A DNA stretch of 64,000 bases. Source: Yersinia thracica (GTDB lineage Bacteria > Pseudomonadota > Gammaproteobacteria > Enterobacterales > Enterobacteriaceae). The stretch lies in assembly GCF_902170565.1 (NCBI RefSeq), contig NZ_CABHXX010000110.1, positions 62,001-126,000 of the forward strand, given 5' to 3'. The position numbers and the translations under genes were made by a program. This document shows, one piece after another, positions 4,309 through 28,113 of the stretch; position 1 is the first letter of the stretch, and each line of letters starts with the position of its first letter. The notes beneath the pieces were generated by a model that did no database searches, had not been told where the DNA came from, and worked only from the letters and a program-made list of their open reading frames with translations.

Positions 4309-4349
4309 AATTTAATATCCTATAAGGTTTGTAGACGAAACTTAAAATA

Positions 4350-7958: not shown

Positions 7959-8870
7959 CTAGCGATAACTGTGATATATCTCAGCGACTCGTTTAAAATA
8001 TTCGGTTAAATAATCGATGCAGACTTGGACTTTGAGTGGCATTTTATCTTTCTCGGTATATAACGCATATACTGGCCGAGGATCAGAATGGTATTTTTTA
8101 AACAATACTTCGACTTCACCTCGTTTAATTTCTTCTATTACCCACATGAGTGGCGCATAGGCAATTCCTGCGCCCGCCTTGAGCCAGCGGATCATAGTTT
8201 GTGAGTCATTGGTGACAAAGCGCCCTTGTGGCGATATTTGCGTGGTAATACCTTCTGGTGCAATCAATTCAAAATTGCTATCTGGCCGTACGCTGTATTC
8301 CAGCCAGGAAAAATTGGTCATGTCACTGGGTTTTTCGGGGGTGCCATTTTGCAACAAATAGCTTTTGGCGGCACATACGACCATCGGCATCGAGCCGAGG
8401 CGGCGGGAAAACAGCCCTGAATCGGGTAAAGCACCCACGCGGATCACCACGTCCAAACCATCGGCAATCAAGTCCGGGGCCGGAATACCGGTGACCAGAT
8501 TAACTGACAGGCCGGGGTACTCTTTCAGCATGTCAGCGGTCATGGTTGCCAGCACATTTTGTGCCATAGTTGATGAACAACCGATGCGCAGTGTGCCGGT
8601 CGGTGTGTTGTTAAAGGCATACAGCTGCTCATGAACTTCCTGTACTTCCTGCAACATGCGCCGGCAGCCTTGGTAATAAATCCGCCCAGCCTCTGTTAAA
8701 CCAATGCGGCGAGTACTGCGGTTAAGCAGCTTAACATTTAGCTCTGTTTCCAGTTTTGATACGGTCTGGCTGATTGAAGAAACACTCATTTCCAACTGTC
8801 GTGCGGCACCGGTAAAAGATCCGCACTCGACCACCTTGGCGAATACTGACATCCGTTTTAATCTTTCCAT
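7959..8870 (-). CDS. aaeR: LysR-type activator AaeR
   Basis: A 303-residue LysR-type regulator starting MERLKRMSVFAKVVE, nearly the same as E. coli AaeR through the helix-turn-helix (SFTGAARQLEMSVSSISQTV) and much of the co-inducer domain (LRIGCSSTMAQNVLA, IPAPDLIADGLDVVIRVGAL). AaeR activates the divergent aaeXAB efflux operon in response to aromatic carboxylic acids such as p-hydroxybenzoate. Here aaeXAB is also divergent and begins 451 bp away, the gap being enlarged by an ERIC element. The C-terminus diverges from the E. coli protein. Confidence 0.93.
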   Translation of the reverse strand: MERLKRMSVFAKVVECGSFTGAARQLEMSVSSISQTVSKLETELNVKLLNRSTRRIGLTEAGRIYYQGCRRMLQEVQEVHEQLYAFNNTPTGTLRIGCSSTMAQNVLATMTADMLKEYPGLSVNLVTGIPAPDLIADGLDVVIRVGALPDSGLFSRRLGSMPMVVCAAKSYLLQNGTPEKPSDMTNFSWLEYSVRPDSNFELIAPEGITTQISPQGRFVTNDSQTMIRWLKAGAGIAYAPLMWVIEEIKRGEVEVLFKKYHSDPRPVYALYTEKDKMPLKVQVCIDYLTEYFKRVAEIYHSYR

Positions 8871-9320
8871 ACTCCCTCCGGATGGATTGTTTTTACAGTG
8901 ATTATTAACTCTGACTTAAAAGTGATTTAGATCACACATCGTAGATAAGTTGATAATAAGCAGGCTAATATACTGCTGTCGGGATAGTTGCCTCAAGGTT
9001 GAAAACCTCGCGGCTGGAGTATTACCTTGTTTTATTCAAACAACAGTTATATCCGTCATACTTCAAGCTGCATGTGCGTTGGCTGTCATCACTCACCCCA
9101 GTCACTTACTGATGTAAGCTCTTGGGAGTTCGCTCAGTTGCCGTCTTCCTGCAACTCGAATTATTTAGGGTATATACTCGCTATTTAAGTTTAACCCATA
9201 GGGTGGGGTTATGGCTCTTGCTTTTAGCTGTGGTTGTAATGATTTGATGAGTTTTGTTACCGGCCTGATTATTCACTCAGGTGGAGGCACCGGTACCCTA
9301 TAACAGAAAGGATTTAAAGA
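8871..9320. other. aaeR-aaeX intergenic region
   Basis: This 450-bp divergent control region should hold the promoters of aaeR and aaeXAB and the AaeR binding site. It contains a full-length ERIC element (9050-9175) and, before it, a stretch with GTGATTTAGATCACAC (about 8920-8936) that resembles a CRP-type dyad (TGA and TCA half-sites). No further gene was recognised. Confidence 0.5.
9050..9175. repeat. ERIC element, full length
   Basis: A roughly 126-bp palindromic element. It starts CCGTCATACTTCAAGCTGCA, contains the ERIC core CTCACCCCAGTCACTTAC and ATGTAAGCTCTTGGGAG, and ends CTCGAATTATTTAGGGTATA. It lies between aaeR and aaeX. Confidence 0.9.
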
Positions 9321-9524
9321 ATGAGTTTGCTCCCGGTGATGGTGATTTTCGGCCTGTCTTTCCCACCGATATTTCTTGAACTGCTTCTCTCGCTGGCACT
9401 TTTTTTTGTGGTACGCAGATTACTGCAACCAACGGGTATTTATGAGTTTGTTTGGCATCCAGCACTCTTTAATACTGCGTTGTATTGCTGCCTTTTTTAC
9501 TTAATTTCTCGTCTTTCATCCTGA
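9321..9524 (+). CDS. aaeX: Small membrane protein AaeX
   Basis: A 67-residue hydrophobic protein with two predicted membrane segments, starting [18 protein letters not shown] as in the E. coli AaeX (DUF1656) family. It is the first gene of aaeXAB, and its molecular role is not known. An AAAGGA ribosome site precedes the ATG. It is 7 bp upstream of aaeA. Confidence 0.93.
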
Positions 9525-9531
9525 GGTTGCC

Positions 9532-10467
9532 GTGAGCACTTTTGCATTAAAAATAATCCGCATCGGCATCACCTTATTGGTGGTTTTATTGGCTGTTATT
9601 GCTGTTTTTAAGGTATGGGCTTTTTATACCGAATCGCCGTGGACCCGTGATGCAAAATTTACCGCAGATGTGGTCGCGATTGCGCCAGATGTCAGCGGCT
9701 TAATTACCGATGTGCCGGTCAAAGACAACCAACTGGTGCAGAAAAGCCAAATCCTGTTTGTCATTGATCAGCCGCGCTATCAGCAAGCACTGGCTGAGGC
9801 CGAGGCCGATGTTGCTTATTACCAAACGCTGGCTGCTGAGAAACAGCGGGAATCCGGCAGACGCCAACGTTTAGGGGTTCAGGCCCTGTCACAAGAAGAA
9901 ATTGACCAATCCAGCAATGTGCTGCAAACCGTCCGCCATCAACTGGCGAAAGCTATTGCGGTGCGCGATTTAGCGCAGCTTGATTTGGAGCGAACCACCG
10001 TGCGTGCACCCGCTGAAGGCTGGGTAACCAACCTGAATGTCCATGCCGGAGAGTTTATTAATCGCGGGGCGACCGCCGTTGCATTAGTGAAGAAAGATAC
10101 TTTCTATATCTTGGCTTATCTGGAAGAGACCAAGTTGGAAGGGGTTAAGCCGGGGTATCGGGCAGAAATCACGCCGCTCGGCAGCAACCGCATTCTGCAC
10201 GGCACCGTCGACAGTATCTCTGCGGGGGTGACCAACAGTAGCAGCAGTGCGGATAGCAAAGGGCTGGCCACGATTGATAATAATCTCGAATGGGTACGGC
10301 TGGCGCAGCGCGTGCCAGTGAAGATTCGCCTGGACAGTGACGTTCAGCAGCATCCCTACCCGGCTGGGACCACCGCGACTGTGGTCATCACCGGAGCGAA
10401 TGATCGCGACCCTAATCAAGCATCGCCGATAGTGAAAATGATGCATCGCCTGCGCGAGTTTGGCTAA
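9532..10467 (+). CDS. aaeA: p-Hydroxybenzoate efflux adaptor subunit AaeA
   Basis: A 311-residue membrane-fusion (HlyD-type) protein, the periplasmic adaptor of the AaeAB aromatic-acid efflux pump. An N-terminal membrane anchor (about residues 8-30) is followed by a lipoyl/barrel-sandwich region ([19 protein letters not shown]), a helical hairpin (about 80-145) and a second lipoyl half ([15 protein letters not shown]). It aligns almost end to end with E. coli AaeA. It begins with GTG after an AGG-type ribosome site, 7 bp after aaeX, and the aaeB start follows its stop almost directly. Confidence 0.95.
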
Positions 10468-15560: not shown

Positions 15561-15722
15561 ATTCCTTAAAAAGAGGCTAATTGTAGCAGGCTGTTGGCTT
15601 TCTGCGAAATTGTACCAAGATCTCTGATAAACTCAGAATCAGGACATTCTCTATTTTATCCGTGTAAGTCGTCGTATTACGACACTTTCCTGAACGATTA
15701 TCTCATTAATTATGGCAGACTG

Positions 15723-17063
15723 ATGAAAGTAGTCACTCAAGTTGCAGAACAGCGTAAAACGCTGGAACAAGCAGTTGCACAGGCTTTAGAGTTAGCCCGT
15801 GCGGGTTCTGATGCGGCCGAAGTTGCCGTAAGCAAAACCACCGGAATCAGTGTCAGCACCCGCTTTGGTGAAGTGGAGAACGTGGAATTCAACAGCGATG
15901 GTGCGCTGGGAATCACTGTTTATCACCAACAGCGTAAGGGTAGCGCCTCCACCACTGACTTAAATCCGGATGCGGTCGCCCGTACCGTGCAGGCTGCACT
16001 GGATATCGCTCGCTATACCTCACCGGATCCTTATGCTGGTCCGGCAGAAAAATCGCTGTTAGCCTTTGAAGCGCCAGATCTGGATTTGTTCCATCCGAGC
16101 GATTTAGATGCTGAGCAAGGTATCTTGCTGGCCGCCCGCGCAGAACAAGCGGCATTGCAGGCTGACAAGCGGATTACCAATACCGAAGGTGGCAGTTTTA
16201 ATAGCCATTATGGCATCAGGGTATTCGGTAATAGCCACGGGATGTTGCAGAGTTACTGCTCAAGCCGCCATTCACTCTCCAGCAGTGTGATTGCAGAACA
16301 CAATGGTGATATGGAGCGGGATTACGCCTATACCATTGGTCGGAGAATGGAAGATTTAGCCAACCCGGAATGGGTTGGTGAAGAGTGCGCCCGCCGTACT
16401 TTATCCCGCTTATCACCCCGTAAACTGCCGACTATGCAGTCGCCGGTGCTGTTTGCCGCAGAAGTCGCTACCGGCCTGTTTGGTCACTTGGTTTCGGCCA
16501 TCAGTGGCGGCAATATTTATCGTAAATCCACTTTCTTACTCGACCACCTTGGCAAGCAGATTTTGCCGGAGTGGCTAACCATTGAAGAACTCCCGCATTT
16601 ACTGCGTGGCTTGGCTTCGACCCCCTTTGACAGTGAGGGCGTGCGCACACTGCAACGCGAAATCGTCAAGGACGGGGTGCTGCAAACCTATCTGTTGACC
16701 AGCTATTCGGCCCGTAAGTTGGGGCTGCAAAGTACCGGTCATGCGGGTGGCATCCATAACTGGCGCATTGCTGGCCAGGGGCAGGATTTCGCCGGGATGC
16801 TCAAGCAACTGGACAAAGGTTTGGTGGTGACGGAATTAATGGGGCAGGGAGTTAGCACCGTGACCGGTGATTATTCCCGTGGTGCGGCCGGTTTTTGGGT
16901 TGAAAACGGTGAGATTCAGTATCCGGTCAGCGAGATAACCATCGCCGGTAATCTGAAAGATATGCTGCACAATATCGTCAGCATCGGCAGCGACATCGAA
17001 ACCCGCAGTAACATTCAGTGCGGCTCGATTTTATTACCTGCGATGAAGATTGCGGGCGAATAA
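15723..17063 (+). CDS. pmbA: Metalloprotease subunit TldE (PmbA)
   Basis: A 446-residue protein matching E. coli TldE/PmbA (450 residues). With TldD it forms a metalloprotease that degrades unfolded peptides, matures microcin B17 and degrades the CcdA antitoxin. Recognisable stretches are the N-terminal [20 protein letters not shown] and the C-terminal [18 protein letters not shown]. The ATG at 15723 gives the family length; an upstream in-frame extension to 15594 has no family support. Confidence 0.94.
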
Positions 17064-17246
17064 TATATTGTTGCTGTGAATCTAAAGCTGGCATCTGTTG
17101 CCAGTTTTTTTTTTTGCTCTTTTCCGAGCTTTCCTTATTTGATTACAAAAAGTCATTGTCAGATTGCCCCTGCATTGCCTATGTTATGTATGAGCAATGT
17201 AATAATGATGTGTCGTGATTTAACAATAATTATAAGGAATGTGAGC

Positions 17247-17633
17247 ATGAGTAAGAAAATAATGGCCTTGATGGCCGCGGCATTGCTGTGTGCCAGCAGT
17301 TTGGTGATGGCTGCCAGTGTGGCAGATAACATGGACACGATTGCCGAGAATTACGGCAAAGTGCTGAAAGCCGACTCTACCGATGTGATTAAACAAGGTT
17401 TACAGGCAATGCGGGTGGCAGCACTTGATGCACAGAAAGGGATTCCGACCAAGTTAAAAGACAAAGCTGAAGATAGTCCCGAAGTGAAAGATTTCCGCCA
17501 CGGTTTAGATTTATTGATCGGGCAGATTGATGGCGCGCTGGCATTAGCTGATCAAGGCAAGCTAGATGAAGCTAAAAAAGCGGCACAAGACTTTAAACCG
17601 ACGCGCGATACTTACCATAAAAAGTACCGCTGA
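17247..17633 (+). CDS. cybC: Soluble cytochrome b562
   Basis: A 128-residue periplasmic four-helix-bundle haemoprotein. A signal peptide ends ...LVMA, and the mature protein begins ASVADNMDTI. The haem ligands are Met7 of the mature form and the His of the C-terminal YHKKYR, as in E. coli cytochrome b562 (Met7, His102). The internal segment DSPEVKDFRHGLDLLIGQID is strongly conserved. A TAAGGA ribosome site supports the ATG at 17247. It is convergent with rnk. Confidence 0.94.
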   Translation: MSKKIMALMAAALLCASSLVMAASVADNMDTIAENYGKVLKADSTDVIKQGLQAMRVAALDAQKGIPTKLKDKAEDSPEVKDFRHGLDLLIGQIDGALALADQGKLDEAKKAAQDFKPTRDTYHKKYR

Positions 17634-17644
17634 TCAGGAAAAGA

Positions 17645-17669
17645 GGGTAATGGCCTTAGGTCGTTACCC
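17645..17669. terminator. Hairpin between cybC and rnk
   Basis: GGGTAA (17645-17650) pairs with TTACCC (17664-17669), extended inwards by GGCC/GGTC pairing. It lies between convergent genes, has no clear T-run, and probably acts as a bidirectional transcription end. Confidence 0.4.
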
Positions 17670-17681
17670 CCATTACATCAA

Positions 17682-18092
17682 TTAGCGGTGATATTCACCG
17701 GCAGCTTCCGGCTGGTAAAGCAATTCCAGCACGATAATGCGGGCTTCATCCCCACCCGGCAATTTCCAACTAATTTCGTTATTCACATGCAACCCCAACA
17801 ATGCCGCACCTAATGGCGCCATGACAGAGAGCTGCTCGTTGCTGTCTTTCAGCGACGCCGGATAAACCAATGTGCGGATATGTTCTTCCTGGCTGTTCAG
17901 ATCGCGAAAACGCACGCGACTGTTCATGGTCACGACATCTGCCGGGATAGCATTAGGAGGCAGGATTTCTGCGCGATCCAGTTCTTCATTGAGCGCTGTT
18001 GCGACCACTGAACCGGCAAAAGCCGGTTGCGCCAGTAACGCATCCAAACGTTCAGCATCCAGCTCGTTAATCGTGATGGTTGGCTTGGTCAT
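17682..18092 (-). CDS. rnk: Regulator of nucleoside diphosphate kinase Rnk
   Basis: A 136-residue GreA/GreB-like protein, the same length as E. coli Rnk, which binds RNA polymerase in the secondary channel but lacks the Gre tip acidic residues. It starts [20 protein letters not shown], and the FKBP-like domain includes [19 protein letters not shown]. The ATG at 18092 gives the family N-terminus. Its 5' leader contains a strong hairpin (see 18130-18160). Confidence 0.95.
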
Positions 18093-18129
18093 ACCACTCT
18101 CCAATTCAATTTCAACAAAACATAAAAAC

Positions 18130-18160
18130 AACACCCCCACGCCATAGGAGAGGGGGTGTT
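18130..18160 (-). terminator. Terminator-like hairpin in the rnk leader
   Basis: Read on the minus strand, AACACCCCC and GGGGGTGTT form a perfect 9-bp stem around a 13-nt loop. GTTTTTATGTTTT follows, and the rnk start lies about 38 nt downstream. The layout is that of an intrinsic terminator or attenuator inside the rnk 5' UTR, or the 3' end of a short upstream transcript. Confidence 0.5.
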
Positions 18161-18490
18161 CGAAAATAGCTTAATATTACTCTGATATTAGGCGCTTCCG
18201 GCGAGAAAAGAAAGAGATCCGGATCACGAACTTTTTTCCACCATCGGCTTCCACCCTCTATTTATATAGCAAGTTATTTTGTTGTTAATGATTAAGTTAG
18301 GGATGTAACGGCGTATTTTGCGAAAGTGATCCCGTCGGTCCATTACATTTCCACTTTGAACTGGAAAAAATGCCGCTACACACCCATTCCGCTTGCAGGT
18401 AGGGTGATGTTATAGCGCAGAGGCAAGGAATAACTGAACTTATCTTTGCAGTCAGAAAGTTGTAGCAGTAAGGAATAGAGGATTGCCAGC
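18161..18490. other. Intergenic region upstream of rnk and of the PRD gene
   Basis: About 330 bp with the promoters of two divergent units, rnk and the 18491-24080 operon. It includes a GATCCGGATC palindrome (about 18210) and AT-rich segments. No open reading frame with family support and no clear sigma-54 site were found. Confidence 0.4.
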
Positions 18491-18835
18491 GTGAATGATG
18501 TAGCCGCATTGAATGCAGCCGAAGACCCTGGAATGAAAGAGGCCATTATCATCACTGAGCGGGTATTAGGTGAAATTACCGCGATGTTAAATGCCGAAAA
18601 TATTTTTACCAATGCTGTTCAGCAGCAAATGTTGACATCACATATTCGGGCTATGGTCTTGCGCTCAATAACGGGCGAGCCACTCCCTGAAGTCGATAAA
18701 TCATTATTTGATGAGATTTCAGCACATTCGATGGAAATGGCTCAGCAAGTGGTCGATAAATTTCCTAATTTACCCATTGAAGAAGCTTATTTGTTGTCGG
18801 TGCATTTTGAAGTAGCAAAAGATAATCACCCATAA
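18491..18835 (+). CDS. Single PRD-domain protein (EF_0829-type)
   Basis: A 114-residue protein consisting essentially of one PTS-regulation domain. His-containing helices (LTSHIRAMVLRSITGE) and the C-terminal EEAYLLSVHFEVAKDN are typical of PRDs, which are phosphorylated on His by PTS proteins. It starts with GTG. It is the first gene of a conserved set (EF_0829 to EF_0839 in Enterococcus faecalis, AHA_3910 to AHA_3917 in Aeromonas hydrophila). Without a DNA-binding domain, it probably acts as a partner or sensor for another component, such as the BglG-type regulator at 25537. Confidence 0.8.
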   Translation: MNDVAALNAAEDPGMKEAIIITERVLGEITAMLNAENIFTNAVQQQMLTSHIRAMVLRSITGEPLPEVDKSLFDEISAHSMEMAQQVVDKFPNLPIEEAYLLSVHFEVAKDNHP

Positions 18836-18858
18836 AAACCTGTTCTGGAGAAAATACT

Positions 18859-19224
18859 ATGAGTCAAATTACTGTTGTGATTGGCGACCGTTTAGGAAAA
18901 GGCCAGAAAGTTGGGCAAGGTGTTGAATTCGCAGGTGGCCGCGTGGTGGTTATTCCCGGAGTGGCCGCAGATATGAAATTGGGCGATGTGATGAATAGCG
19001 AAAAAGCAGATTTCGGTATTTCATTCTGTGGTAGCGGCGGTGCGGGCGCTATTACTGCGCAAAATAAATATGGCTACAAAGCAAAATACGGCATGCGTTC
19101 AGTGGAAGAAGGCGTGACGGCAATAAACGAAGGCTGCAAGGTTTTAGGCTTCGGATTTATGGATAAAGAAGAATTAGGGCAAAAGCTAGTGGAAGCCTAT
19201 ATCAAGAAATATGGTCAGCCGTAA
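18859..19224 (+). CDS. Glycine-rich SFCGS-family protein (EF_0830-type)
   Basis: A 121-residue soluble protein of unknown function from the conserved EF_0830 family (Gly-rich SFCGS). The signature ADFGISFCGSGGAGAITAQN contains Cys57. The context resembles the active-site Cys loop of RpiB/LacAB sugar-phosphate isomerases (ADxGIxxCGTGxG..IAANK), so an isomerase-like or phosphoryl-carrier role is possible, but that is inference. A GGAG ribosome site precedes the ATG. Its stop overlaps the next start (TAATG). Confidence 0.8.
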   Translation: MSQITVVIGDRLGKGQKVGQGVEFAGGRVVVIPGVAADMKLGDVMNSEKADFGISFCGSGGAGAITAQNKYGYKAKYGMRSVEEGVTAINEGCKVLGFGFMDKEELGQKLVEAYIKKYGQP

Positions 19225-19520
19225 TGAAAGAGCAATATACCACTCAGGTGCAAGTCAAAGGTAAAGGCGATACTAAAGGTAAAGCTTTCGCTAATGCACT
19301 CGGTAATGTCCAGAATACGGTATTGAAGTCGACACAAAATATTTTGCTGCGAATTGAGCCACAAGACGTAAAAGTATTAAAAGCAGAATTATCAGTAAAA
19401 AATGAAAAGTTTTTATTCTTTTTCCTGTCGCGGGAAAGAAAAACCTACAGTGTTGAATTAGATATTACCGTGAGTGTGACAATCATTAATACAGATAAGG
19501 TTGTCTTCATATCTAAATAA
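19224..19520 (+). CDS. DUF4312 family protein (EF_0831-type)
   Basis: A 98-residue, mostly beta-strand-like soluble protein (EQYTTQVQVKGKGDTKGKAF, then a basic RERKTYSVELDITVSVTI). It belongs to a family known only from this gene set. Its start overlaps the preceding stop by one base, which suggests translational coupling and a shared complex. No catalytic motif is recognisable. Confidence 0.78.
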   Translation: MKEQYTTQVQVKGKGDTKGKAFANALGNVQNTVLKSTQNILLRIEPQDVKVLKAELSVKNEKFLFFFLSRERKTYSVELDITVSVTIINTDKVVFISK

Positions 19521-19538
19521 GATGAAAAGGATATACTA

Positions 19539-20315
19539 ATGTTTCTAATCATTCTTTTTAAGTCGATTATTATCGGCGGACTGGTCGGCGTGGGGGTCGG
19601 CGTGGGGGCCGCCCGTATGTTCCATGCACCGACCATTCAGGGAATGGGGGCGTTTCGTACCTTGGGCGAGTTGAACTCGTGTGAGGGCGACCCGGCTTCG
19701 CATTTCTCCTTTGGGCTAGGGTTCTTCTTCAACGCCTGGGCTTCTTCAGTAGCAGCAGGGGCTTTTACTCAAGACGTCGACCACCGCATTATTCCTAACT
19801 GGGGTGCCGCAGCATTGATGATTAAAAATCGCAATGTGGCGGAAACCATGCATAACCCGAAAAAAATGGCGATCGCCTGCGGGATTATCGGGGTTATTGT
19901 GGTCAGCTTTTTAAATACCACGGCATCGGCAGTTCCTGCGGCATTACAGGTCACGGCAATTAAAGTGCTGGTACCGGCGGCAAATATTCTGGTTAACACC
20001 GTGATGCCCGTTATTTTCTGGTTGGCGGCAATTGATGCCGGGCGTCGCTCTGGTTTCTGGGCCACTATTTTCGGCGGCTTGGCGCAGTTAATTATGGGCA
20101 ACGCAGTACCAGGTCTGGTTTTGGGTATTTTAATTGGTAAAGGTGTTGAAGAAAGCGGCTGGAATAAAGTCACTAAAATCATGATGACAGTCATTGTGCT
20201 GTTATTCGTGCTCAGTGGTTTCTTCCGCGGATTCGATCTGAAATTCCTGGAATCATTTAGTCTGAGTGCTCCAGTATGGCTCGACACTATTCATAACGCA
20301 TTAAGCGGAAAATAA
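19539..20315 (+). CDS. DUF4311 membrane protein (EF_0832-type)
   Basis: A 258-residue polytopic membrane protein with about six or seven hydrophobic segments. It begins MFLIILFKSIIIGGLVGVGV and contains a conserved soluble stretch (GAFRTLGELNSCEGDPASHF). Together with the following DUF4310 protein it is the likely transport or channel part of the system. An AAAAGGA ribosome site precedes the ATG. No homology to a known permease can be claimed from the sequence alone. Confidence 0.8.
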   Translation: MFLIILFKSIIIGGLVGVGVGVGAARMFHAPTIQGMGAFRTLGELNSCEGDPASHFSFGLGFFFNAWASSVAAGAFTQDVDHRIIPNWGAAALMIKNRNVAETMHNPKKMAIACGIIGVIVVSFLNTTASAVPAALQVTAIKVLVPAANILVNTVMPVIFWLAAIDAGRRSGFWATIFGGLAQLIMGNAVPGLVLGILIGKGVEESGWNKVTKIMMTVIVLLFVLSGFFRGFDLKFLESFSLSAPVWLDTIHNALSGK

Positions 20316-20333
20316 CACAGCGAGAGGAGCTTG

Positions 20334-20987
20334 ATGATGGATGAACAAACCAAGAATAATTTCTGGTATGCCGACTGGTCATTTCCGATCTTTGTAGGAT
20401 TATTATCCTCCGGTGTATTTGCAGGTACCCATATGTATTATTTATATGGGATCGGCGCATTTAACGAAGTAGCCTTTGTTTCAATGCTACGTGCAGGCAT
20501 GGACACCGGTGTTTATGGTGCGGTTGCTGCATTTGGTGCTAGCTTCTTATTCGCCCGAATTATTGAAGGTTCGCTGGTCGGTATTTTGGATATTGGCGGA
20601 GCGATTCAAACTGGCGTTGGTCTGGGCGTGCCAGCATTATTACTGGGCGCTGGGTTTGTCTTCCCGGTCGCTAATTTCGCCGCTTCTTTAGCGACTGGCT
20701 TAATTATTGGTTTAGCTATCGGCTACCTGATTATTTTGGCGCGTAAATTTACGATTAACCAAAGTAATTCAACTTACGGTGCTGATGTCATGATGGGCGC
20801 AGGTAATTCATCTGGCCGTTTCTTGGGGCCATTGATTATTTTGTCCGCCATTACTGCCTCAATTCCAATTGGGATTGGTTCTTTAGGTGGCGCATTACTG
20901 TTTTATCTGTGGAATAAGCCTATTACCGGTGGCGCAATTTTGGGTGCCATGATTTTAGGTTCTATTTTCCCCGTCGCAATCTCTTAA
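20334..20987 (+). CDS. DUF4310 membrane protein (EF_0833-type)
   Basis: A polytopic membrane protein of about 217 residues: NNFWYADWSFPIFVGLLSSG, several Gly/Ala-rich helices (GLGVPALLLGAGFVFPVA) and a polar loop (YGADVMMGAGNSSGRFLGP). An AGGAG box at 20325-20329 can serve the ATGs at 20334 or 20337. It forms a pair with the DUF4311 gene 18 bp upstream, and I infer that the two act as one transporter. Confidence 0.8.
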   Translation: MMDEQTKNNFWYADWSFPIFVGLLSSGVFAGTHMYYLYGIGAFNEVAFVSMLRAGMDTGVYGAVAAFGASFLFARIIEGSLVGILDIGGAIQTGVGLGVPALLLGAGFVFPVANFAASLATGLIIGLAIGYLIILARKFTINQSNSTYGADVMMGAGNSSGRFLGPLIILSAITASIPIGIGSLGGALLFYLWNKPITGGAILGAMILGSIFPVAIS

Positions 20988-20991
20988 TCCA

Positions 20992-21027
20992 CAGGGTAAA
21001 TATTCCAATAACGGGATATTTACCCTG
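20992..21027 (+). other. Strong hairpin between transporter and enzyme genes
   Basis: CAGGGTAAATATTCC (20992-21006) pairs with GGGATATTTACCCTG (21013-21027) over 15 bp with one wobble and a 6-nt loop. No T-run follows. It lies in the only sizeable gap of the operon, so it may cap or protect the upstream mRNA, or set different expression for membrane proteins and enzymes. Confidence 0.7.
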
Positions 21028-21070
21028 CTGCGACATCAAGTTAAGAAGGCTATAACGGAGAATAAAGATT

Positions 21071-22240
21071 ATGTATGACTTTATTATCACCCGCGCAGTA
21101 TTGGTTGATGGCCGTCAGGTTGATATCGCGATTAATAACGGCAAAATAGTGGCGGTGGATACAGCTATTTCTGCGGGGCAAAATAATCAAACGGCGTTTT
21201 TAGCAAAACCAGCTAAAAAAGTATTGGATTTGGCTGGGAAATATTACCTCAGTGCTGGCTGGATTGATTCCCATGTTCACTGTTACCCCGCGTCACCTAT
21301 TTATCATGATGAAGCCGATTTAGTCGGCGTTGCCAGTGGCGTCACCACGGTGGTGGATGCAGGCAGCACCGGTGCCAATGATGTGGATGATTTTTACCGC
21401 TTAACTCGCGCGGCCAAAACCCATGTTTATGCTTTTCTGAATATTGCGAAAACCGGCATTGTCACGCAAAACGAATTAGCCGATATGGCGCAGATTGATA
21501 AGCAAAGTGTCAGCCAGGCCATTGCCCGCAATCCCGGTTTTATTATTGGCATCAAAGCGCGCATGAGTAGCAGCGTAGTCGGTAAAAATGGCATCAAACC
21601 CTTGGTGCGCGCTAAAGAAATTCAACAAGAAAACAACCAGTTGCCGCTTATGGTACATATTGGCAATAACCCGCCGGACCTGGATGAAATTGCCGATTTA
21701 CTGACCCAGGGCGACATCATTACTCATTGCTACAACGGCAAACCGAACCGAATTTTGACCCCTGCCGGTGCCTTACGTGAATCCATCCAGCGAGCGCTGA
21801 AGCGCGGCGTATTATTAGATGTGGGCCACGGCAGCGCCAGTTTCAGTTTTGATGTGGCCGAGCTTGCCATCAAGCAAGGAATTTACCCGCACACCATTAG
21901 TTCCGACATTTATTGCCGCAACCGCCTGAGCGGGCCAGTCCATAGCCTGGCGACCGTGATGTCCAAATTTTTCACTATCGGCCTGAGCCTTGAGCAAGTG
22001 ATTCGCTGTGTGACAGAAAATGCCGCACAAGCCCTACGCCTGACCCATAAAGGGGTGCTGGATGCAGGCTATGACGCTGATTTCACTATTTTTGAGCTGA
22101 AACAACAGCCTCAGGTGTTCAGTGATTCAGAGGGTAAATCGGTCACCGGTGAGAAGTATCTGGTGCCACTGGCTGCGGTCGTCGCCGGTGACTTAGTATT
22201 AACTGATGAAGGGAAGTTAAAAGATGTCTTCAGTCTATGA
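21071..22240 (+). CDS. Amidohydrolase/deacetylase (EF_0837-type, COG3964)
   Basis: A 389-residue amidohydrolase-superfamily metalloenzyme. Candidate metal ligands are in place: His68 and His70 (SHVHCYP), the bridging Lys162 (IGIKARMS, likely carbamylated), His196 (MVHIGNNP), His219 (ITHCYNGK) and Asp279 (ISSDIYC). Members of this COG are often misannotated as dihydroorotase; some remove acetyl groups from N-acetyl-D-amino acids or related esters. I infer that it deacylates the transported compound before the PLP enzyme acts. It overlaps the next gene by 17 bp. Confidence 0.82.
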   Translation: MYDFIITRAVLVDGRQVDIAINNGKIVAVDTAISAGQNNQTAFLAKPAKKVLDLAGKYYLSAGWIDSHVHCYPASPIYHDEADLVGVASGVTTVVDAGSTGANDVDDFYRLTRAAKTHVYAFLNIAKTGIVTQNELADMAQIDKQSVSQAIARNPGFIIGIKARMSSSVVGKNGIKPLVRAKEIQQENNQLPLMVHIGNNPPDLDEIADLLTQGDIITHCYNGKPNRILTPAGALRESIQRALKRGVLLDVGHGSASFSFDVAELAIKQGIYPHTISSDIYCRNRLSGPVHSLATVMSKFFTIGLSLEQVIRCVTENAAQALRLTHKGVLDAGYDADFTIFELKQQPQVFSDSEGKSVTGEKYLVPLAAVVAGDLVLTDEGKLKDVFSL

Positions 22241-23336
22241 AAAATACCAGTTAAAGCATGTGATTAATGCTTCTGGCCGCATGACGATGCTGGGTGTTTC
22301 AACACCACGGCAGGATGTGGTTGAGGCCGTGGAGTTGGGTCTGAATCATTACTTTGTCATGAAAGATTTGGTGAATCAGACGGGCGCTTATATTGCCAAC
22401 TTACTGAATGTAGAAAGCGCGGTGGTGGTGTCTTGCGCTTCTGCCGGGATTGCCCAGTCGGTCGCCGCCGTGATTGTCAAAGACAATGCCAATTTGTTGG
22501 TTAACTTGCACGCCGCGCCGCGCACGGTGCCCCATGAGATTGTGTTACCCAAAGGCCACAATGTTAATTTTGGTGCGCCGGTTGATACCATGGTGACATT
22601 GGGCGGCGGCAAAGTGGTGGAAGCGGGTTATGCCAATGAGTGCTTGCCAGAACAACTGGAAGCGGCGATCACGCCAAATACGGCGGCGATCTTGTATATA
22701 AAATCCCATCATTGTGTGCAAAAAAGTATTTTGTCAGTTGAGCAGGCGGTGGTGATCGCGCGCAAGCATCAATTGCCATTAATTGTTGATGCCGCCGCAG
22801 AAGAAGATTTGCAGTGTTACTACCAAATGGGCGCTGATTTAGTGATTTATAGCGGTGCCAAAGCCATTGAAGGGCCGACCAGCGGCTTAGTGTTGGGCAA
22901 AAAAACCTATGTAGATTGGGTGAAATTGCAATCAAACGGCATTGGCCGGGCGATGAAAGTGGGTAAAGAGGGCATCCTTGGTTTGACCCGCGCGATTGAA
23001 AGTTACATGACACTGGAGAAAGAAACTGGCCAGCAGATGATTGACAAAATGACGCCATTTATCAGCCAGTTAAATACTATCGATGGTGTCTCAGCCAAAG
23101 TGGTTTGGGATGCCGCAGGGCGTGATATTGCCCGCACTGAAATTAGTTTTGATGAAGCCAAAATTGGCCGTTCAACGCCAGACTTAGTTGATGCACTCAA
23201 AAATGGCGATATTGCCATTTACTTCCGCGCTTACAAAGCCAACGAAGGCAAGATTGAGGTGGATGTGCGCAGTGTGACGCCATCGCAGCTCGAGACGATT
23301 TACACCTGCATTAACCGCTTGGTTAAGGGAGCCTAA
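22224..23336 (+). CDS. SelA/DgaE-like PLP-dependent enzyme (EF_0838-type)
   Basis: A 370-residue fold-type-I PLP enzyme of the SelA-like family. VIYSGAKAIEGPTSGL carries the expected PLP lysine (Lys213), preceded by LPLIVDAAAEEDL with the ring-binding Asp. The closest characterised relative in kind is DgaE of Salmonella, which eliminates ammonia from D-glucosaminate 6-phosphate to give 2-keto-3-deoxy-6-phosphogluconate. Its position between a deacetylase and an aldolase fits the same chemistry, but the substrate is not proven. It has a 17-bp overlap with the amidohydrolase gene and a 3-bp gap to the aldolase gene. Confidence 0.82.
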   Translation: MSSVYEKYQLKHVINASGRMTMLGVSTPRQDVVEAVELGLNHYFVMKDLVNQTGAYIANLLNVESAVVVSCASAGIAQSVAAVIVKDNANLLVNLHAAPRTVPHEIVLPKGHNVNFGAPVDTMVTLGGGKVVEAGYANECLPEQLEAAITPNTAAILYIKSHHCVQKSILSVEQAVVIARKHQLPLIVDAAAEEDLQCYYQMGADLVIYSGAKAIEGPTSGLVLGKKTYVDWVKLQSNGIGRAMKVGKEGILGLTRAIESYMTLEKETGQQMIDKMTPFISQLNTIDGVSAKVVWDAAGRDIARTEISFDEAKIGRSTPDLVDALKNGDIAIYFRAYKANEGKIEVDVRSVTPSQLETIYTCINRLVKGA

Positions 23337-23339
23337 CTG

Positions 23340-24080
23340 ATGAAACTGACCCCAAACTATTACCGTGACCGCGTGTGTTTGAATGTGCTGGCCGGTTCTA
23401 AAGACAATGCGCGCGATATTTATCAGGCCGCTGAAGGCCATGTGCTGGTGGGCGTGTTATCGAAGAATTATCCGGATGTCGACAGCGCCGTCAAAGATAT
23501 GCGCGAGTACGCGGCACTTATCGACAATGCGTTGTCGGTTGGATTGGGTGCCGGTGACCCTAAACAGTCGGCGATGGTCAGCCAGATTTCACATCAAGTG
23601 CAGCCGCAGCATGTGAATCAAGTATTTACCGGTGTCGGCCCGAGCCGCGCTTTGTTGGGTCAGCAAGATACTGTAGTTAATGGCCTGATTTCGCCGACCG
23701 GCAAAGTGGGCTATGTGAAAATTTCCACCGGCCCGCTGAGTTCTCAGCAGAAAGACGCGATTGTTCCGGTCACCACCGCTATCGCCATGCTGAAAGATAT
23801 GGGCGGCAGTTCGGTAAAATTCTTCCCGATGAATGGGCTGGATTCTATCGAAGAATACCGTTTTGTCGCCGAGGCTTGTGCGGCGACCGGGTTCTGGCTG
23901 GAGCCAACCGGTGGTATTGATCTGGAGAATTTCGAACAAATTCTGCAAATCGCACTGGATGCTGGCGTGACGAAAGTCATCCCGCATATCTATAGCTCGA
24001 TTATCGACAGCAAAACCGGCCATACCCGCCCGATCGATGTGAAAACCTTATTGAATATCGTCAAAAAAATCGTGCAGTAA
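23340..24080 (+). CDS. KDPG-aldolase-like protein (DgaF/EF_0839-type)
   Basis: A 246-residue TIM-barrel aldolase of the DgaF family. GGSSVKFFPMNGLDSIEEY carries Lys160, the expected Schiff-base lysine, and FWLEPTGGIDLENF forms the phosphate-binding end. In DgaF the reaction is cleavage of 2-keto-3-deoxy-6-phosphogluconate to pyruvate and glyceraldehyde 3-phosphate. It starts at an ATG 3 bp after the PLP enzyme gene and is the last gene of the conserved set. Confidence 0.85.
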   Translation: MKLTPNYYRDRVCLNVLAGSKDNARDIYQAAEGHVLVGVLSKNYPDVDSAVKDMREYAALIDNALSVGLGAGDPKQSAMVSQISHQVQPQHVNQVFTGVGPSRALLGQQDTVVNGLISPTGKVGYVKISTGPLSSQQKDAIVPVTTAIAMLKDMGGSSVKFFPMNGLDSIEEYRFVAEACAATGFWLEPTGGIDLENFEQILQIALDAGVTKVIPHIYSSIIDSKTGHTRPIDVKTLLNIVKKIVQ

Positions 24081-24209
24081 CTTACTGATTTATTGGCATC
24101 AAGTTTAATAGAACATCAGTATCTACGGGGTAGCCAGCCCGCTGCCCTGACTGTGAAGTTGAATAGTTCCATACCATTCGATAGCCATTCCCTATGAGTA
24201 AGGACCCAT

Positions 24210-25451
24210 ATGCATAACAGCTCAACAGATTCTGGTTTAACCGGCCTGACGGGGTTAAAAAGCCTGTCGGCGGGCATTGCTTTGGCGACGGTCGCGCTGT
24301 TTAATCCTCTGGCCCATGCCGAACAGAATGCCAATAAATCATTCGCTTACGTCGGAACCTATCACCCGAATGGGGAAGGAGTTTACCGGCTACAGGTTGA
24401 TCCTAAAACCGGTGAATTAAGTGAAAAAACGCTGGTCAGTTCACTGGCTAATCCGGCACAACTGGTGGTGGATGCACAGGGAAAAACTTTATATGTCGCC
24501 AGTGAAGTGGCGGATTTCAATGGGGGTAAGCACGGCGCGATTGCGGCATACAGTATCAACCCGGTTGATGGCAGTTTGACATTGATTAATCAGGTTGATT
24601 CCCAGGGTGCGGGGCCGGTGTATCTCTCATTAACACCATCGGGCAGCCATTTATTGGTTGCCAACTATATCAGCGGCTCGGTGGCGGTTTTCCCGGTGCA
24701 AAGTGGCGGTAAACTCGCAGAGGCCAGCTCAGTAGAGCAAGATGAAGGCCCGGCGGGCGCGGCGAAACCGGCGGCGGCGGTAGAGGGCAGCTTCGCTATC
24801 AGTGACCACAATGGCTCACATGCGCACATGATTGCCAGCTCGCCGAGTGGCAAATTTGTATTCTCGACTGATCTGGGGCTAGATAGGATTTATCAATACC
24901 AATTTGATGCGGATAATGGCAAGTTGATACCGAACTCTCCGCCATTTATCAGTGCCTCATCCGCCGGTGCTGGCCCACGTCATTTTGTGTTCCATCCTAA
25001 CGGTAAGACGCTATTTTTAATCAATGAAGAAGCCTCGACGCTGACCAGTTATCAGCTAGATACAGAAAAAGGTACTTTAAAACAGTTACATACGCATTCA
25101 TCGTTACCGCCGGATTACCGTGGCACCAGTTTTGCGGCCGGTCTGACGCTCTCGAAAGACGGTAAATTCCTGTATGTCGCCAACCGGCTGCATAACAGTA
25201 TCGGCCAGTTTGCCGTGACGACGGACGGTGAATTTAAGCCGGTGGAAGAGGTTTGGACGCGAGGTGATTATCCGCGCACGCTGGTGCTCGACCCCACCGG
25301 CCACTATCTGTACGCCATGAATCAACGTAGCGATAACATAACCCGCTTTAAAGTTGACCCACAAAGTGGCAAATTGACCTTTGTACCTGGCTATACCGCC
25401 GTCGGCAGCCCATCGCAAATGGTGTTTGTGCCGCCAGCATCGAAAAAATGA
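24210..25451 (+). CDS. Exported lactonase-family beta-propeller protein
   Basis: A 413-residue seven-bladed propeller of the 6-phosphogluconolactonase (Pgl/YbhE, PF10282) family. Repeated blade motifs include KTLYVASEV, HLLVANY and KFLYVANRLHNS. Unlike cytoplasmic Pgl, it has a signal peptide (about residues 16-37, ending LAHA), so it should act in the periplasm, perhaps opening a sugar-acid lactone before uptake. It lies 130 bp after the aldolase gene and may have its own promoter. The substrate is unknown. Confidence 0.8.
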   Translation: MHNSSTDSGLTGLTGLKSLSAGIALATVALFNPLAHAEQNANKSFAYVGTYHPNGEGVYRLQVDPKTGELSEKTLVSSLANPAQLVVDAQGKTLYVASEVADFNGGKHGAIAAYSINPVDGSLTLINQVDSQGAGPVYLSLTPSGSHLLVANYISGSVAVFPVQSGGKLAEASSVEQDEGPAGAAKPAAAVEGSFAISDHNGSHAHMIASSPSGKFVFSTDLGLDRIYQYQFDADNGKLIPNSPPFISASSAGAGPRHFVFHPNGKTLFLINEEASTLTSYQLDTEKGTLKQLHTHSSLPPDYRGTSFAAGLTLSKDGKFLYVANRLHNSIGQFAVTTDGEFKPVEEVWTRGDYPRTLVLDPTGHYLYAMNQRSDNITRFKVDPQSGKLTFVPGYTAVGSPSQMVFVPPASKK

Positions 25452-25536
25452 TGTGAAATACCGCGCCCCTGCGGCCATGCTGGCAGGGGATGCTTAATAT
25501 TCAGAATAACAATGCCCTAAATAACGGAGTGGAGCA

Positions 25537-27465
25537 GTGAGATTTCCCTATCAACGTCTGGCCTATATGTTCGATGCATTGCAATCGGAAACGCTGCCTC
25601 AAGAGGAGTTGGCGAAACGCTTTGCGGTCTCGACGCGCACTGTGCGGGCGGATATTACGGCGTTGAATGAGGTTCTTGAGCATTATGGTGCGCACTTTAT
25701 TCATAACCGTGGCTTTGGTTATCGGCTGATGATTGATGATGCTGAGCGCTTCCGTGCTTTACAGCAGCAAAATCGTAAAATGCATCTGACGCCGCGCACT
25801 GCCAGTGAGCGAGTGCATTATTTGTTAATCCGTTTTTTGACCTCTGCTTTTTCATTGAAGCTAGAAGATTTAGCCGATGAATGGTTTGTCAGCCGTGGCA
25901 CATTGCAAAATGATATGGCTGAGGTGAGAGAAAGGTTAAACCGCTACCATCTGACGATTGAAACTAAACCTCGCTATGGCATGAAACTGTTCGGAACGGA
26001 ACTGGCCATTCGCACCTGTCTGACGGATTTACTGTTTCAGTTACAACTGCAAGATGCTGATAACCCATTATTAAAGAATGAGTTTCTCAGTATCCAAACC
26101 CTGCCTGAGCTGACGGGGTTGCTGCATGAGTTACTGGCACAATATGCGGTGCGGCTAACGGATGAGGGCGAGCAATACCTGATTTTCTACTGTGCGGTGG
26201 CGATAAAGCGCATCACCGACGGCTACCCATTATCTGATTTTGATGCTGAAGATGTGGATGAGGCGGTCAAATTGGCTTCTGGCCGTTTGGCAAATCAGCT
26301 CAAGCTGTTATCCGGTAAAGATATTTCAGCGGCGGAAGAAGCTTATTTGCGGGTGAATATTGCCGCCCGCCGGGTACAGACCAGCCAGCCCAGCACCAGC
26401 CGCCCCAGTGAAATCAATGCCGATGACGAAGAAACGCTGGTGGATTATATCCTCTCGTATATCAATGCTCATTATAACTACAATTTGCAGGGCGATAAGC
26501 AGCTGCGCAGTGACCTGCTCACCCATATCAAAACTATGATTACGCGGGTGAAATATCAGATTACTATTCCTAACCCACTGTTATCCAACATTAAACAGCA
26601 TTATCCAATGGCCTATGATGTCACTTTGGCGGCGGTTTCCAGTTGGGGGAAATACACGCCTTACAGCTTAAGTGAAAATGAAATCGGCTATCTGGTATTG
26701 CACATTGGGGTGGGGCTGGAGCGCCATTACAACATTGGTTATCAGCGCCATCCGCAGGTCATGCTGGTGTGTGACACTGGGAATTCCACCACGCGGATGA
26801 TTCAGGCGCAAATTTCCCGTAAGTATCCGCAGATTGTGATGACTCAGACTATTTCCCTGCGTGATTACGACAATCTCGACCATATCGACGAAGATTTTAT
26901 TATTTCCAATTCGCGATTAGCAGAGAAGAACAAGCCGGTGGTGGTGATGTCGCCGTTCCCGACAGAATATCAATTAGAGCAACTCGGTAAACTGGTTTTA
27001 GTCGACCGCACCCGGCCTTATATGTTGGAAAAATTCTTTGATAACAATCATTTTATGATTATCGACCAGCCGATGACCCAGGAGCAGTTGTTCAAAAAAG
27101 TCTGTGGTCAGTTGGAAGAAGAAGGGTTTGTGGATGCGGATTTTTACCCCTCAGTCGTCGAGCGGGAGGCGATAGTTTCTACCATGCTGGGCGAGGGGAT
27201 TGCACTGCCACATTCACTGGGCTTATTAGCCAAGAAAACCGTGGTGGTCACTTTGTTGGCCCCTGAGGGCATTGCCTGGGGGGACGGCGAAGTCGCTCAT
27301 GTCATCTTCCTGCTGGCTATCAGTAAAACGGATTATGAAGAAGCGATGGCCATTTATGACCTGTTTGTCACTTTTGTACGCGAGCGCTCCATGAGCCGTT
27401 TATTGAGTAGCCAGCATTTTGATAGTTTTAAGGCCATCGCGATTGATTGTTTGAGTCGGATCTGA
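25537..27465 (+). CDS. BglG/MtlR-type regulator with PTS EIIB and EIIA domains
   Basis: A 642-residue regulator. An N-terminal helix-turn-helix (RFAVSTRTVRADITAL) and a Mga-like second HTH (about 90-150) are followed by two PRDs (about 180-390, with LVLHIGVGLERHY in the second), an EIIB-Gat-like domain with Cys412 (VCDTGNSTTRM), and a C-terminal EIIA domain with His559 (GIALPHSLGLL). Phosphorylation of the PRD, Cys and His sites by the PTS normally sets activity. It is encoded just downstream of the 18491-25451 genes and most likely controls them. It starts with GTG, with GGAG 7 bp before. Confidence 0.88.
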   Translation: MRFPYQRLAYMFDALQSETLPQEELAKRFAVSTRTVRADITALNEVLEHYGAHFIHNRGFGYRLMIDDAERFRALQQQNRKMHLTPRTASERVHYLLIRFLTSAFSLKLEDLADEWFVSRGTLQNDMAEVRERLNRYHLTIETKPRYGMKLFGTELAIRTCLTDLLFQLQLQDADNPLLKNEFLSIQTLPELTGLLHELLAQYAVRLTDEGEQYLIFYCAVAIKRITDGYPLSDFDAEDVDEAVKLASGRLANQLKLLSGKDISAAEEAYLRVNIAARRVQTSQPSTSRPSEINADDEETLVDYILSYINAHYNYNLQGDKQLRSDLLTHIKTMITRVKYQITIPNPLLSNIKQHYPMAYDVTLAAVSSWGKYTPYSLSENEIGYLVLHIGVGLERHYNIGYQRHPQVMLVCDTGNSTTRMIQAQISRKYPQIVMTQTISLRDYDNLDHIDEDFIISNSRLAEKNKPVVVMSPFPTEYQLEQLGKLVLVDRTRPYMLEKFFDNNHFMIIDQPMTQEQLFKKVCGQLEEEGFVDADFYPSVVEREAIVSTMLGEGIALPHSLGLLAKKTVVVTLLAPEGIAWGDGEVAHVIFLLAISKTDYEEAMAIYDLFVTFVRERSMSRLLSSQHFDSFKAIAIDCLSRI

Positions 27466-27470
27466 GCGTA

Positions 27471-27776
27471 TTAGTTATGTAGTGATACCGGTTCCGGTTT
27501 ATACAATTTAGTCAGATTCGAAACATCGATATTCTCTTCTGCTTTTCCGAGGTCGTAAGCCGCCTGAAGGCGAAGCCACATGGCCGGAGTGCTTCCCAGA
27601 ACCGCCGCCAGTTTCACGGCCATTTCCGGCGAAATGGCTGAGTGACAGGAGACAAGCCGCTGGACAGTGGACGGCGCAACGTTTAATGCTCTCGCCAACT
27701 CCCTGATCCCAAGCTCCAAATCTTCGAGCATACCTTCAATCATTTCTCCCGGATGTGGTGGATTATGCATTTTCAT
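27471..27776 (-). CDS. higA: Antitoxin HigA
   Basis: A 101-residue XRE-family antitoxin (HigA/VapI type) with a helix-turn-helix at residues 24-60 (IRELARALNVAPSTVQRLVS) and the family N-terminus HNPPHPGEMIEGMLE. It neutralises HigB and, with it, should repress the operon through the operator at 28066-28113. It follows higB with a one-base overlap. The toxin-first order is typical of hig modules. Confidence 0.93.
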   Translation of the reverse strand: MKMHNPPHPGEMIEGMLEDLELGIRELARALNVAPSTVQRLVSCHSAISPEMAVKLAAVLGSTPAMWLRLQAAYDLGKAEENIDVSNLTKLYKPEPVSLHN

Positions 27777-28054
27777 TAGTGATAGTCCTCGTAGTTAAGA
27801 ATAAATGCATCTCCGTCTGTAAACTTGAACGTAATGCGCCAATTTCCGCTCACTGTTACTGACCAGATGTTTTCTCTGTCACCCTGTAACGGGTGGAGTT
27901 TGTACCCCGCGACATTGACATCTTCAATTGTTTCCGCCAGGTCGATAAATCGTAAACGGTCGCGGAGCCGCTTAACATGCTGAGGGTTAATGCCAGCGGC
28001 AGAACCCGTTTCGAAGAAGCGTTGCAGTCCCTTGTGTTTCCAACTTTTTATCAT
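27776..28054 (-). CDS. higB: mRNA interferase toxin HigB
   Basis: A 92-residue RelE/ParE-superfamily toxin. The sequence KHKGLQRFFETG, PQHVKRLRDRLRFID and NWRITFKFTDGDAFILNYEDYH is characteristic of HigB, which cleaves mRNA in translating ribosomes. It is complete, with an intact partner and promoter, so the module is probably active. Confidence 0.93.
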   Translation of the reverse strand: MIKSWKHKGLQRFFETGSAAGINPQHVKRLRDRLRFIDLAETIEDVNVAGYKLHPLQGDRENIWSVTVSGNWRITFKFTDGDAFILNYEDYH

Positions 28055-28065
28055 TTCTCGTTCCC

Positions 28066-28113
28066 TGTTGCGCCACGAGAAACATTATAGCGAATGTTTC
28101 GCACTGCGCAACA
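28066..28113 (-). promoter_or_regulatory. higBA promoter with two nested inverted repeats
   Basis: The outer arms TGTTGCGC (28066-28073) and GCGCAACA (28106-28113) and the inner arms GAAACATT (28079-28086) and AATGTTTC (28093-28100) are perfect 8-bp inverted repeats around the same centre. On the minus strand TTGCGC (-35) and TATAAT (28084-28089, -10), 16 bp apart, lie within the dyad. This is a likely autoregulatory site for HigA or HigBA. Confidence 0.75.

Follow-up and report, generated by a model that had tools for sequence, protein, structure and literature searches.

A conserved operon in Yersinia thracica and its relatives proposed to import and degrade an N-acetylated 2-amino-aldonic acid

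What use do bacteria make of the EF_0829 to EF_0839 gene set, an orphan operon that no title or abstract in the literature searched assigns to a function? We examined a copy in Yersinia thracica, carried on a stretch of 64,000 nucleotides (RefSeq assembly GCF_902170565.1, contig NZ_CABHXX010000110.1, positions 62,001 to 126,000; hereafter the window, with coordinates counted from its first base). The answer that we favour, tentatively and short of calling it probable, is an operon for the breakdown of an N-acetylated 2-amino-aldonic acid, with N-acetyl-D-glucosaminate (GlcNAc1A) or a close epimer as the best guess, which would be taken up and phosphorylated by a module of four proteins, SFCGS, DUF4312, DUF4311 and DUF4310 (the DUF module). 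GlcNAc1A is N-acetylglucosamine oxidised at C1, an oxidised building block of chitin. DUF4310, DUF4311 and DUF4312 occur in no paper of the literature searched, and the string 'sfcgs' only in papers that are off the subject by title. A 2013 paper in Biochemistry reportedly deals with cog3964 enzymes. Two papers touch on EF0838/EF0839 in passing, and according to one of them (PMC2912369) the promoter of EF0839, or of its identical copy EF2975, is among those active in urine.

All eight open reading frames (ORFs) between 18491 and 24080 are on the plus strand, are open at the positions assigned to them by a first-pass annotation of this DNA, and score above the curated NCBIfam cut-offs of their family models, in the same order as in the EF_0829-EF_0839 and AHA_3910-AHA_3917 set (TIGR03577-TIGR03583). 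They encode a small PRD-domain protein of the EF_0829 family (18491-18835; TIGR03582, 131 vs 69.35 bits), the SFCGS protein of the EF_0830 family (18859-19224; TIGR03577, 224 vs 141.1 bits), a small, soluble DUF4312 protein of the EF_0831 family (19224-19520; TIGR03578, 128.2 vs 89.65 bits) and two membrane proteins with hydrophobic stretches, DUF4311 of the EF_0832 family (19539-20315; TIGR03580, 503.3 vs 301.1 bits) and DUF4310 of the EF_0833 family (20331-20987; TIGR03579, 389.9 vs 215.45 bits). These are followed by an amidohydrolase/deacetylase of the EF_0837 family, a proposed de-N-acetylase (21071-22240; TIGR03583, 548.2 vs 432.15 bits), a DgaE-family pyridoxal phosphate (PLP) enzyme, a proposed 2-amino-aldonate-6-phosphate ammonia-lyase (22224-23336; TIGR01437, 593.7 vs 385.3 bits), and a DgaF-type aldolase for 2-dehydro-3-deoxy-6-phosphogluconate, or 2-keto-3-deoxy-6-phosphogluconate (KDPG) (23340-24080; TIGR03581, 405.3 vs 222.4 bits; NF047796, 397.6 vs 300 bits). 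The seven gaps between the eight genes measure 23, -1, 18, 15, 83, -17 and 3 bases: one junction spans 83, and the other six either overlap or stay below 25 bases.

The conserved unit extends past 24080 to 27465 and takes in a regulator. Downstream of the aldolase and on the same strand lie a 7-bladed beta-propeller lactonase (24210-25451; PF10282, 350 bits), a variable part of the unit, and a PRD regulator with HTH, Mga, PRD and EIIA-2 domains in Pfam and two PRD stretches (25537-27465), after gaps of 129 and 85 bases. Among the best 80 of 541 Enterobacterales loci, ranked by DUF4311 match, 74 carry all nine core genes (the eight genes and the regulator) at nearly full length, and 73 of these 74 keep a single order and strand, the exception (L091) having its regulator upstream. 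Of the six incomplete loci, two lie at a contig end (L056, L104), one is without five full-length genes (L062) and three are without one each (L110, L082, L067). The regulator is matched in 78 of the 80 loci and the lactonase in 29; in all 27 complete loci that have the lactonase, it sits between DgaF and the regulator. Lactonase N termini look signal-peptide-like by eye, and the enzyme is probably exported; that of the window has no stretch at the hydrophobicity threshold used. The first-pass annotation had described a complete operon in the EF_0829-EF_0839 order, forming one unit from 18491 to 24080. Its gene content and order stand, the unit is borne out by the close junctions and the order kept across loci, and its end was set too early, since the regulator belongs.

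The DUF4311 protein of the window is 83-100% identical to those of the 80 loci, and its ten best matches are all from Yersinia species (97-100% identity). Klebsiella and Serratia, among other genera, carry the operon, and an Aeromonas caviae record has the SFCGS gene (79% identity) with a 41-residue piece of DUF4310. DUF4311 exceeds its cut-off in 41 of 295 genomes of the order; DUF4310 is found in 12 of 398 genomes of the phylum, all 12 in one family (f1). For the two membrane genes, blastn gave no match in 20,395 E. coli records. Weak TIGR03580 matches also arose in the E. coli control and in two further genomes (G112, G140); the one in G140, where a DnaJ-domain protein whose membrane anchor is rich in Gly is seen by eye, was taken as chance.

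Judged by family, the enzymes would act in series as deacylase, DgaE-type ammonia-lyase and KDPG-type aldolase. The amidohydrolase combines its TIGR03583 score with the metal ligands HxH, Lys, His, His, Asp, which we take to be the pattern of the superfamily; H68, H70, K162, H196, H219 and D279 are invariant in 101 of 101 aligned sequences, a redundant set that includes the window, and four solved relatives were found at E 1e-5, including 8wzy and 2ics. In the DgaE-family enzyme K213 (the presumed PLP lysine), H163, R304, R335 and R349 are invariant in 89 of 89 aligned sequences, again redundant and with the window included. For the Salmonella D-glucosaminate-6-phosphate ammonia-lyase, PMC9529869 places the phosphate at an Arg cluster by manual docking, names His-163 as proton donor and gives the catalytic lysine as Lys-217; the aligned PLP-site-like lysine is 213, which we take as a difference in numbering. 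Mapped to the window enzyme through the alignment to 7lc0, this phosphate-site Arg cluster is kept in all 89 sequences. The window enzyme meets only the broader TIGR01437 model and falls below the D-glucosaminate-6-phosphate ammonia-lyase equivalog NF047797 (362.3 vs 600 bits). The aldolase passes its own equivalog, NF047796, and has solved relatives in 3lm7 and 3m0z.

From these families we infer the following steps. Where present, the lactonase would open a sugar lactone to the aldonate. The DUF4311/DUF4310 membrane pair, with the soluble SFCGS and DUF4312 proteins, would take up the aldonate, probably with phosphorylation at C6 from phosphate of the phosphotransferase system (PTS). The EF_0837-type amidohydrolase would then remove acetate, the DgaE-type PLP enzyme would remove ammonia to give KDPG, and the DgaF-type aldolase would release pyruvate and glyceraldehyde-3-phosphate, with the small PRD protein and the PRD/EIIA regulator coupling expression to the phosphorylation state of the PTS. 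In its chemistry this pathway is a variation on known ones; a novelty in kind may lie in the transport module.

A close known system is the dga operon of Salmonella, which like the window has a DgaE-family lyase, a DgaF aldolase and several uptake proteins in front (in part from PMC9529869). The window differs in that a deacetylase is added, the transporter is unrelated by the sequence tests made, and DgaE lies below the equivalog cut-off. A dga-type twin is present in Lacticaseibacillus (L142), where mannose PTS IIA, IIB, IIC and IID, standing where the window has the DUF module, accompany DgaE and DgaF; an amidohydrolase and a kinase were not matched within 19 kb. The first-pass annotation had compared the last three enzymes to the D-glucosaminate route with a deacylase added and had seen a non-standard membrane pair in place of a mannose PTS, and both comparisons agree with our results: the three families follow in series, and two membrane and two small soluble proteins stand opposite the mannose PTS of L142. 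Its proposed substrate, an N-acylated amino-sugar acid or amino acid, narrows most likely to an acetylated aldonic acid, and the aldolase speaks against a plain amino acid. It had not brought in the PTS-responsive regulator, the lactonase, an exchange of kinase and transporter between loci, the likeness of SFCGS to RpiB or an HPr-Enzyme I fusion found in Bartonella.

The exchange of transporter and kinase was seen in a survey of plasmid records with the amidohydrolase (n = 218) or the DgaE-type gene (n = 195), in which seven regions were read among the matches listed. We refer to the deacetylase (the EF_0837-type amidohydrolase), the DgaE-type enzyme and the DgaF-type aldolase as the trio. Clostridioides (L140) has a lac/cel PTS IIB, IIA and IIC, MupG, the trio and a sugar kinase; Priestia (L141) has the trio, a sugar kinase, GntR and a gluconate:H+ symporter (GntP); and Niallia (L143), a region that is unannotated and was read by BLAST, has a PTS IIC, MupG, the trio and a kinase. 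In the Enterococcus record (L111), where the gene order of the family is likewise seen, the DUF module itself occurs with a PTS IIC, MupG and a sugar kinase, which together with a small hypothetical protein and the regulator in first place set it apart from the window; the enteric members differ from it in turn by a lactonase that is sometimes added and a regulator that is nearly always last. In the same Enterococcus faecalis record, which is labelled as a plasmid, the aldolase gene lies in two different frames, and no annotation is listed for it (L111:17777-18519). In two alphaproteobacterial regions (L145:1913-11055, L146:4595-13589), a distant member of the same amidohydrolase family is paired with a DgaE-like PLP enzyme, an ABC transporter, RidA and IclR, and a further region (L144) has the PLP enzyme, RidA and an ABC transporter, with the amidohydrolase not annotated; the L145 and L146 clusters represent another unassigned pathway.

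Two observations make an acetylated aldonic acid the most likely substrate: GntP stands beside the trio in Priestia, and a lactonase is found in 29 of the 80 loci. Taken jointly, the gluconate symporter, the lactonase, the deacetylase in operons that are not dga-type, the DgaE-type lyase and the KDPG aldolase indicate an N-acetyl-2-amino-aldonate. As for its phosphorylation, a sugar kinase is present in all three DUF-free trio operons and in the Enterococcus record, and no ORF similar to the kinase, to MupG, to that PTS IIC or to GntP was found at E 1e-8 in the 86 loci whose DUF module was traced as far as the regulator (77 of them from the best 80 Enterobacterales loci, and nine others). Since the kinase occurs beside a symporter or a MupG-linked PTS and none occurs beside the DUF module alone, the simplest reading is that the module phosphorylates. 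A kinase would be needed where the transporter leaves the aldonate unphosphorylated, as with a symporter, or with a PTS that tags the partner sugar in a disaccharide cleaved by MupG.

A connection to the PTS is also suggested by the regulator, in whose EIIA-2 domain the active-site-like His of the IALPH motif is invariant in 86 aligned sequences, and which we propose, from its domains, to be a PTS-controlled activator. On a Bartonella plasmid (L112), an HPr-Enzyme I fusion comes directly after the complete operon. The search also matched a second Bartonella record.

The distribution of the kinase bears directly on the best-placed alternative, which we regard as possible yet on balance unlikely, and which overlaps with the alternative of a different substrate. 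Here the DUF module would be an ion-coupled importer that does not phosphorylate, a kinase encoded elsewhere would act inside the cell, and the PTS link would be regulatory only. No such kinase is found in the 86 DUF-module loci, and the four kinase-bearing loci have another recognised entry; in favour of the alternative, Priestia has its GntP symporter beside trio and kinase. The position of two soluble and two membrane proteins where a dga-type operon has its mannose PTS argues against it as well, against which must be set a membrane pair unlike every PTS EIIC compared, a Bartonella HPr-Enzyme I that could serve the PRD/EIIA regulator alone, and a marine pathway, ong, that deaminates first and phosphorylates 2-keto-3-deoxygluconate (KDG) later (PMC9537276).

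We still read the DUF module as an importer of an N-acetyl-2-amino-aldonate that depends on the PTS and probably phosphorylates its substrate, and several observations weigh against this. Phosphorylation is read from operon content only. Because the 86 loci come from few lineages, they amount to less independent evidence than their number suggests, and an unlinked kinase could supply the phosphate; a kinase search of five genomes, made without a positive control, found none. The Arg cluster of the DgaE-type enzyme is shared by the kinase-type operons and the putative enzyme 8t7j, so it fits a phosphorylated substrate and does not prove one. The Enterococcus regulator gave no EIIA match, so EIIA belongs to the variable parts of the system. 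DUF4311 and DUF4310 had no PTS match in Pfam at E values up to 1 (window proteins) or 10, and structure searches with the SFCGS, DUF4310 and DUF4311 profiles gave nothing useful and no known transporter fold. AlphaFold models reached a mean predicted local distance difference test score (pLDDT) of 45.5 for DUF4311 (33 sequences) and 48.2 for DUF4310 (39 sequences), probably because the alignments are too uniform.

Profile comparisons, which were judged against column shuffles that preserve residue class, likewise place the membrane proteins in neither PTS class compared. The score against the EIIC of the mannose family (EII-Sor), the only component of that family compared, was reached by 66 of 100 shuffles for DUF4311 and 18 of 100 for DUF4310, and the score against the galactitol/ascorbate-type EIIC-GAT by 49 and 63 of 100. 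A relationship of DUF4311 to DUF2232 was set aside: all 13 members match (best E 4.4e-4), yet they resemble one another, and the window protein scores below the cut-off. The matches are a possible lead to the fold of DUF4311 (window 19539-20315).

The identity of the substrate raises the second alternative, that the same chemistry serves another N-acylated compound, such as a galacto- or manno-epimer, a muramic-type acid or an N-acyl-D-amino acid ending in a KDPG-like product, and this we hold to be unlikely. The window DgaE lies far under the D-glucosaminate-6-phosphate ammonia-lyase cut-off (362 vs 600 bits), and MupG, which accompanies the trio at three Firmicutes loci, may indicate peptidoglycan-related disaccharides, yet DgaF passes the KDPG aldolase equivalog cut-off, one sister operon has a gluconate symporter, and plain amino acids do not suit the aldolase. 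The comparison with known GlcNAc1A users also bears on this question. Marine bacteria use GlcNAc1A after lytic polysaccharide monooxygenase (LPMO) attack on chitin, with enzymes unrelated to those of this operon (PMC9537276 and PMC12017989). Their ong pathway (OngB, OngC, KdgK, OngIT) resembles our proposal in that an acetylated aldonate is deacetylated, deaminated and phosphorylated to KDG-6-phosphate, a sequence described for one marine bacterium (PMC9537276), and according to the same two papers it has a D-aminoacylase-like OngB, a fold-type III PLP enzyme in OngC, an SSS transporter in OngIT, and phosphorylation as its last step. The window does not belong to this pathway: its PLP enzyme is SelA/DgaE-like, its membrane proteins are DUF4311 and DUF4310 and not SSS, and the OngB structures 9KB1 and 9KB3 are not among the four solved relatives of its amidohydrolase at E 1e-5.

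Two results tell against GlcNAc1A and fit the alternative of another substrate. First, the idea that the operon follows chitin LPMOs was rejected: an LPMO is present in the genome of the window, but LPMO_10 occurs in 16 of 41 DUF4311-positive vs 63 of 254 DUF4311-negative genomes (Fisher P = 0.085), a link that is weak over the 295 genomes and disappears in family f1 (4 of 16 vs 2 of 7, P = 1.0); in family f27 the count is 0 of 12. Second, ong clusters for GlcNAc1A are reported from Klebsiella and Serratia (PMC9537276), so that GlcNAc1A would have two routes in these genera, which also carry this operon. Perhaps GlcNAc1A comes from other sources and is used by two routes; alternatively, an epimer or relative may serve as the substrate. 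An Aeromonas study (PMC11653859) reports LPMOs there, finds counterparts of OngB and OngC that are distant at best, and leaves open whether other deacetylases and deaminases take their place.

That the four DUF-module proteins form a membrane-bound enzyme or sensor complex, with the substrate entering otherwise, is improbable, for although SFCGS is remotely sugar-phosphate-isomerase-like and the module coexists with a PTS IIC in Enterococcus, the four loci read that have DgaE and lack the module all have a recognised transporter in the operon, and the Klebsiella and Bartonella operons have no other annotated transporter.

Within the favoured importer, the SFCGS protein draws attention. Its Cys57 and the SFCGSGGAG loop are invariant in 123 redundant aligned sequences; no histidine is invariant. 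SFCGS appears remotely RpiB/LacAB-like: 10 of 11 members match LacAB_rpiB (best E 0.0013, below cut-off), and the SFCGS-RpiB profile score was reached by 1 of 100 shuffles. It does not reach membership of these isomerases (PF02502, 16.7 vs 24.7 bits; TIGR02133, 19.2 vs 168.2 bits). The alignment of ten DUF4312 sequences has no invariant His or Cys, the protein has no hydrophobic stretch, and its ten structure matches, which include engineered recA and haemoglobin fusions, are not meaningful.

Similar features are found in the yhf operon of E. coli (YhfY, YhfU, YhfT, YhfS, Php), which like the window has an EF_0829-related PRD protein, a small RpiB-like protein with a Cys/Gly loop, a multispan membrane protein, PLP enzymes and a phosphotriesterase-like hydrolase, presumably a member of the amidohydrolase superfamily. 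Unlike the window, it has one membrane protein, no DUF4312 and other enzymes. YhfY matches TIGR03582 below the cut-off (E 1.6e-6, 28.4 bits). By profile comparison the link to this operon looks solid for the PRD protein (PRD-YhfY score reached by 0 of 200 shuffles), likely for SFCGS (SFCGS-YhfU, 1 of 200), weak for DUF4310 (DUF4310-YhfT, 4 of 200) and unsupported for DUF4311-YhfT (93 of 200) and DUF4312-YhfU (163 of 200). The yhf operon may be a cousin because SFCGS and YhfU are both remotely RpiB-like, the YhfU-RpiB score being reached by 0 of 100 shuffles. The Pfam match of SFCGS to DUF2620, the YhfU family, is weak when taken alone (4 of 11 members, best E 0.0042, below cut-off), as the unrelated Cecropin (0.0032) and DUF1685 (0.0039) reach similar values in one to three members. 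We also rejected YhfT as a fused DUF4311 and DUF4310, which is convincing by eye but weak or unsupported in the shuffles; the decoy comparison for YhfT was too small to be usable, as two of its four clusters were skipped and one of the other two was YhfT itself. The window's own genome holds a yhf-like set (L136:10401-15332), with YhfT and YhfU relatives by BLAST and YhfX-, YhfW- and YhfY-like ORFs by eye. A bolder proposal, which we put forward as doubtful, is that SFCGS, DUF4312, DUF4311 and DUF4310 constitute a new class of phosphoenolpyruvate-dependent phosphorylating sugar-acid transporter, in which the RpiB-like protein with its invariant Cys would be a phosphocarrier replacing the classical EIIB, with YhfU-YhfT as a cousin.

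The surroundings of the operon gave no hint of the substrate among ten flanking proteins of four loci (L021, L022, L024, L028). In Klebsiella (L113), pmbA and cybC (8108-9883) precede the operon, and window positions 15594-18140 hold by eye the same two neighbours and an rnk-like gene, so that the site looks old and common to both. Directly behind the regulator, Klebsiella L113 has an annotated RelB/RelE pair, and the window has a small minus-strand two-gene pair (27471-28054) that by eye resembles a HigA/HigB-type toxin-antitoxin module. Two large minus-strand ORFs at 772-6821 by eye resemble Tc-type toxin complex subunits. No Rfam match was found in 17600-28100. CRP-like sites in the window are not above chance (22 vs a mean of 26.0), a promoter scan was at chance level (16 vs 15.9), and terminator-like sites are fewer than chance (6 vs 11.1).

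With this proposal, an orphan gene set of enteric bacteria, Aeromonas, Bartonella and Enterococcus gains a concrete, testable substrate and pathway. If it is true, there would be a second, unrelated route for the use of oxidised amino sugars. If the DUF module transports, it would found a transporter family of its own, and sense could be made of the E. coli K-12 yhf operon, in which every gene annotation reads putative or uncharacterised.

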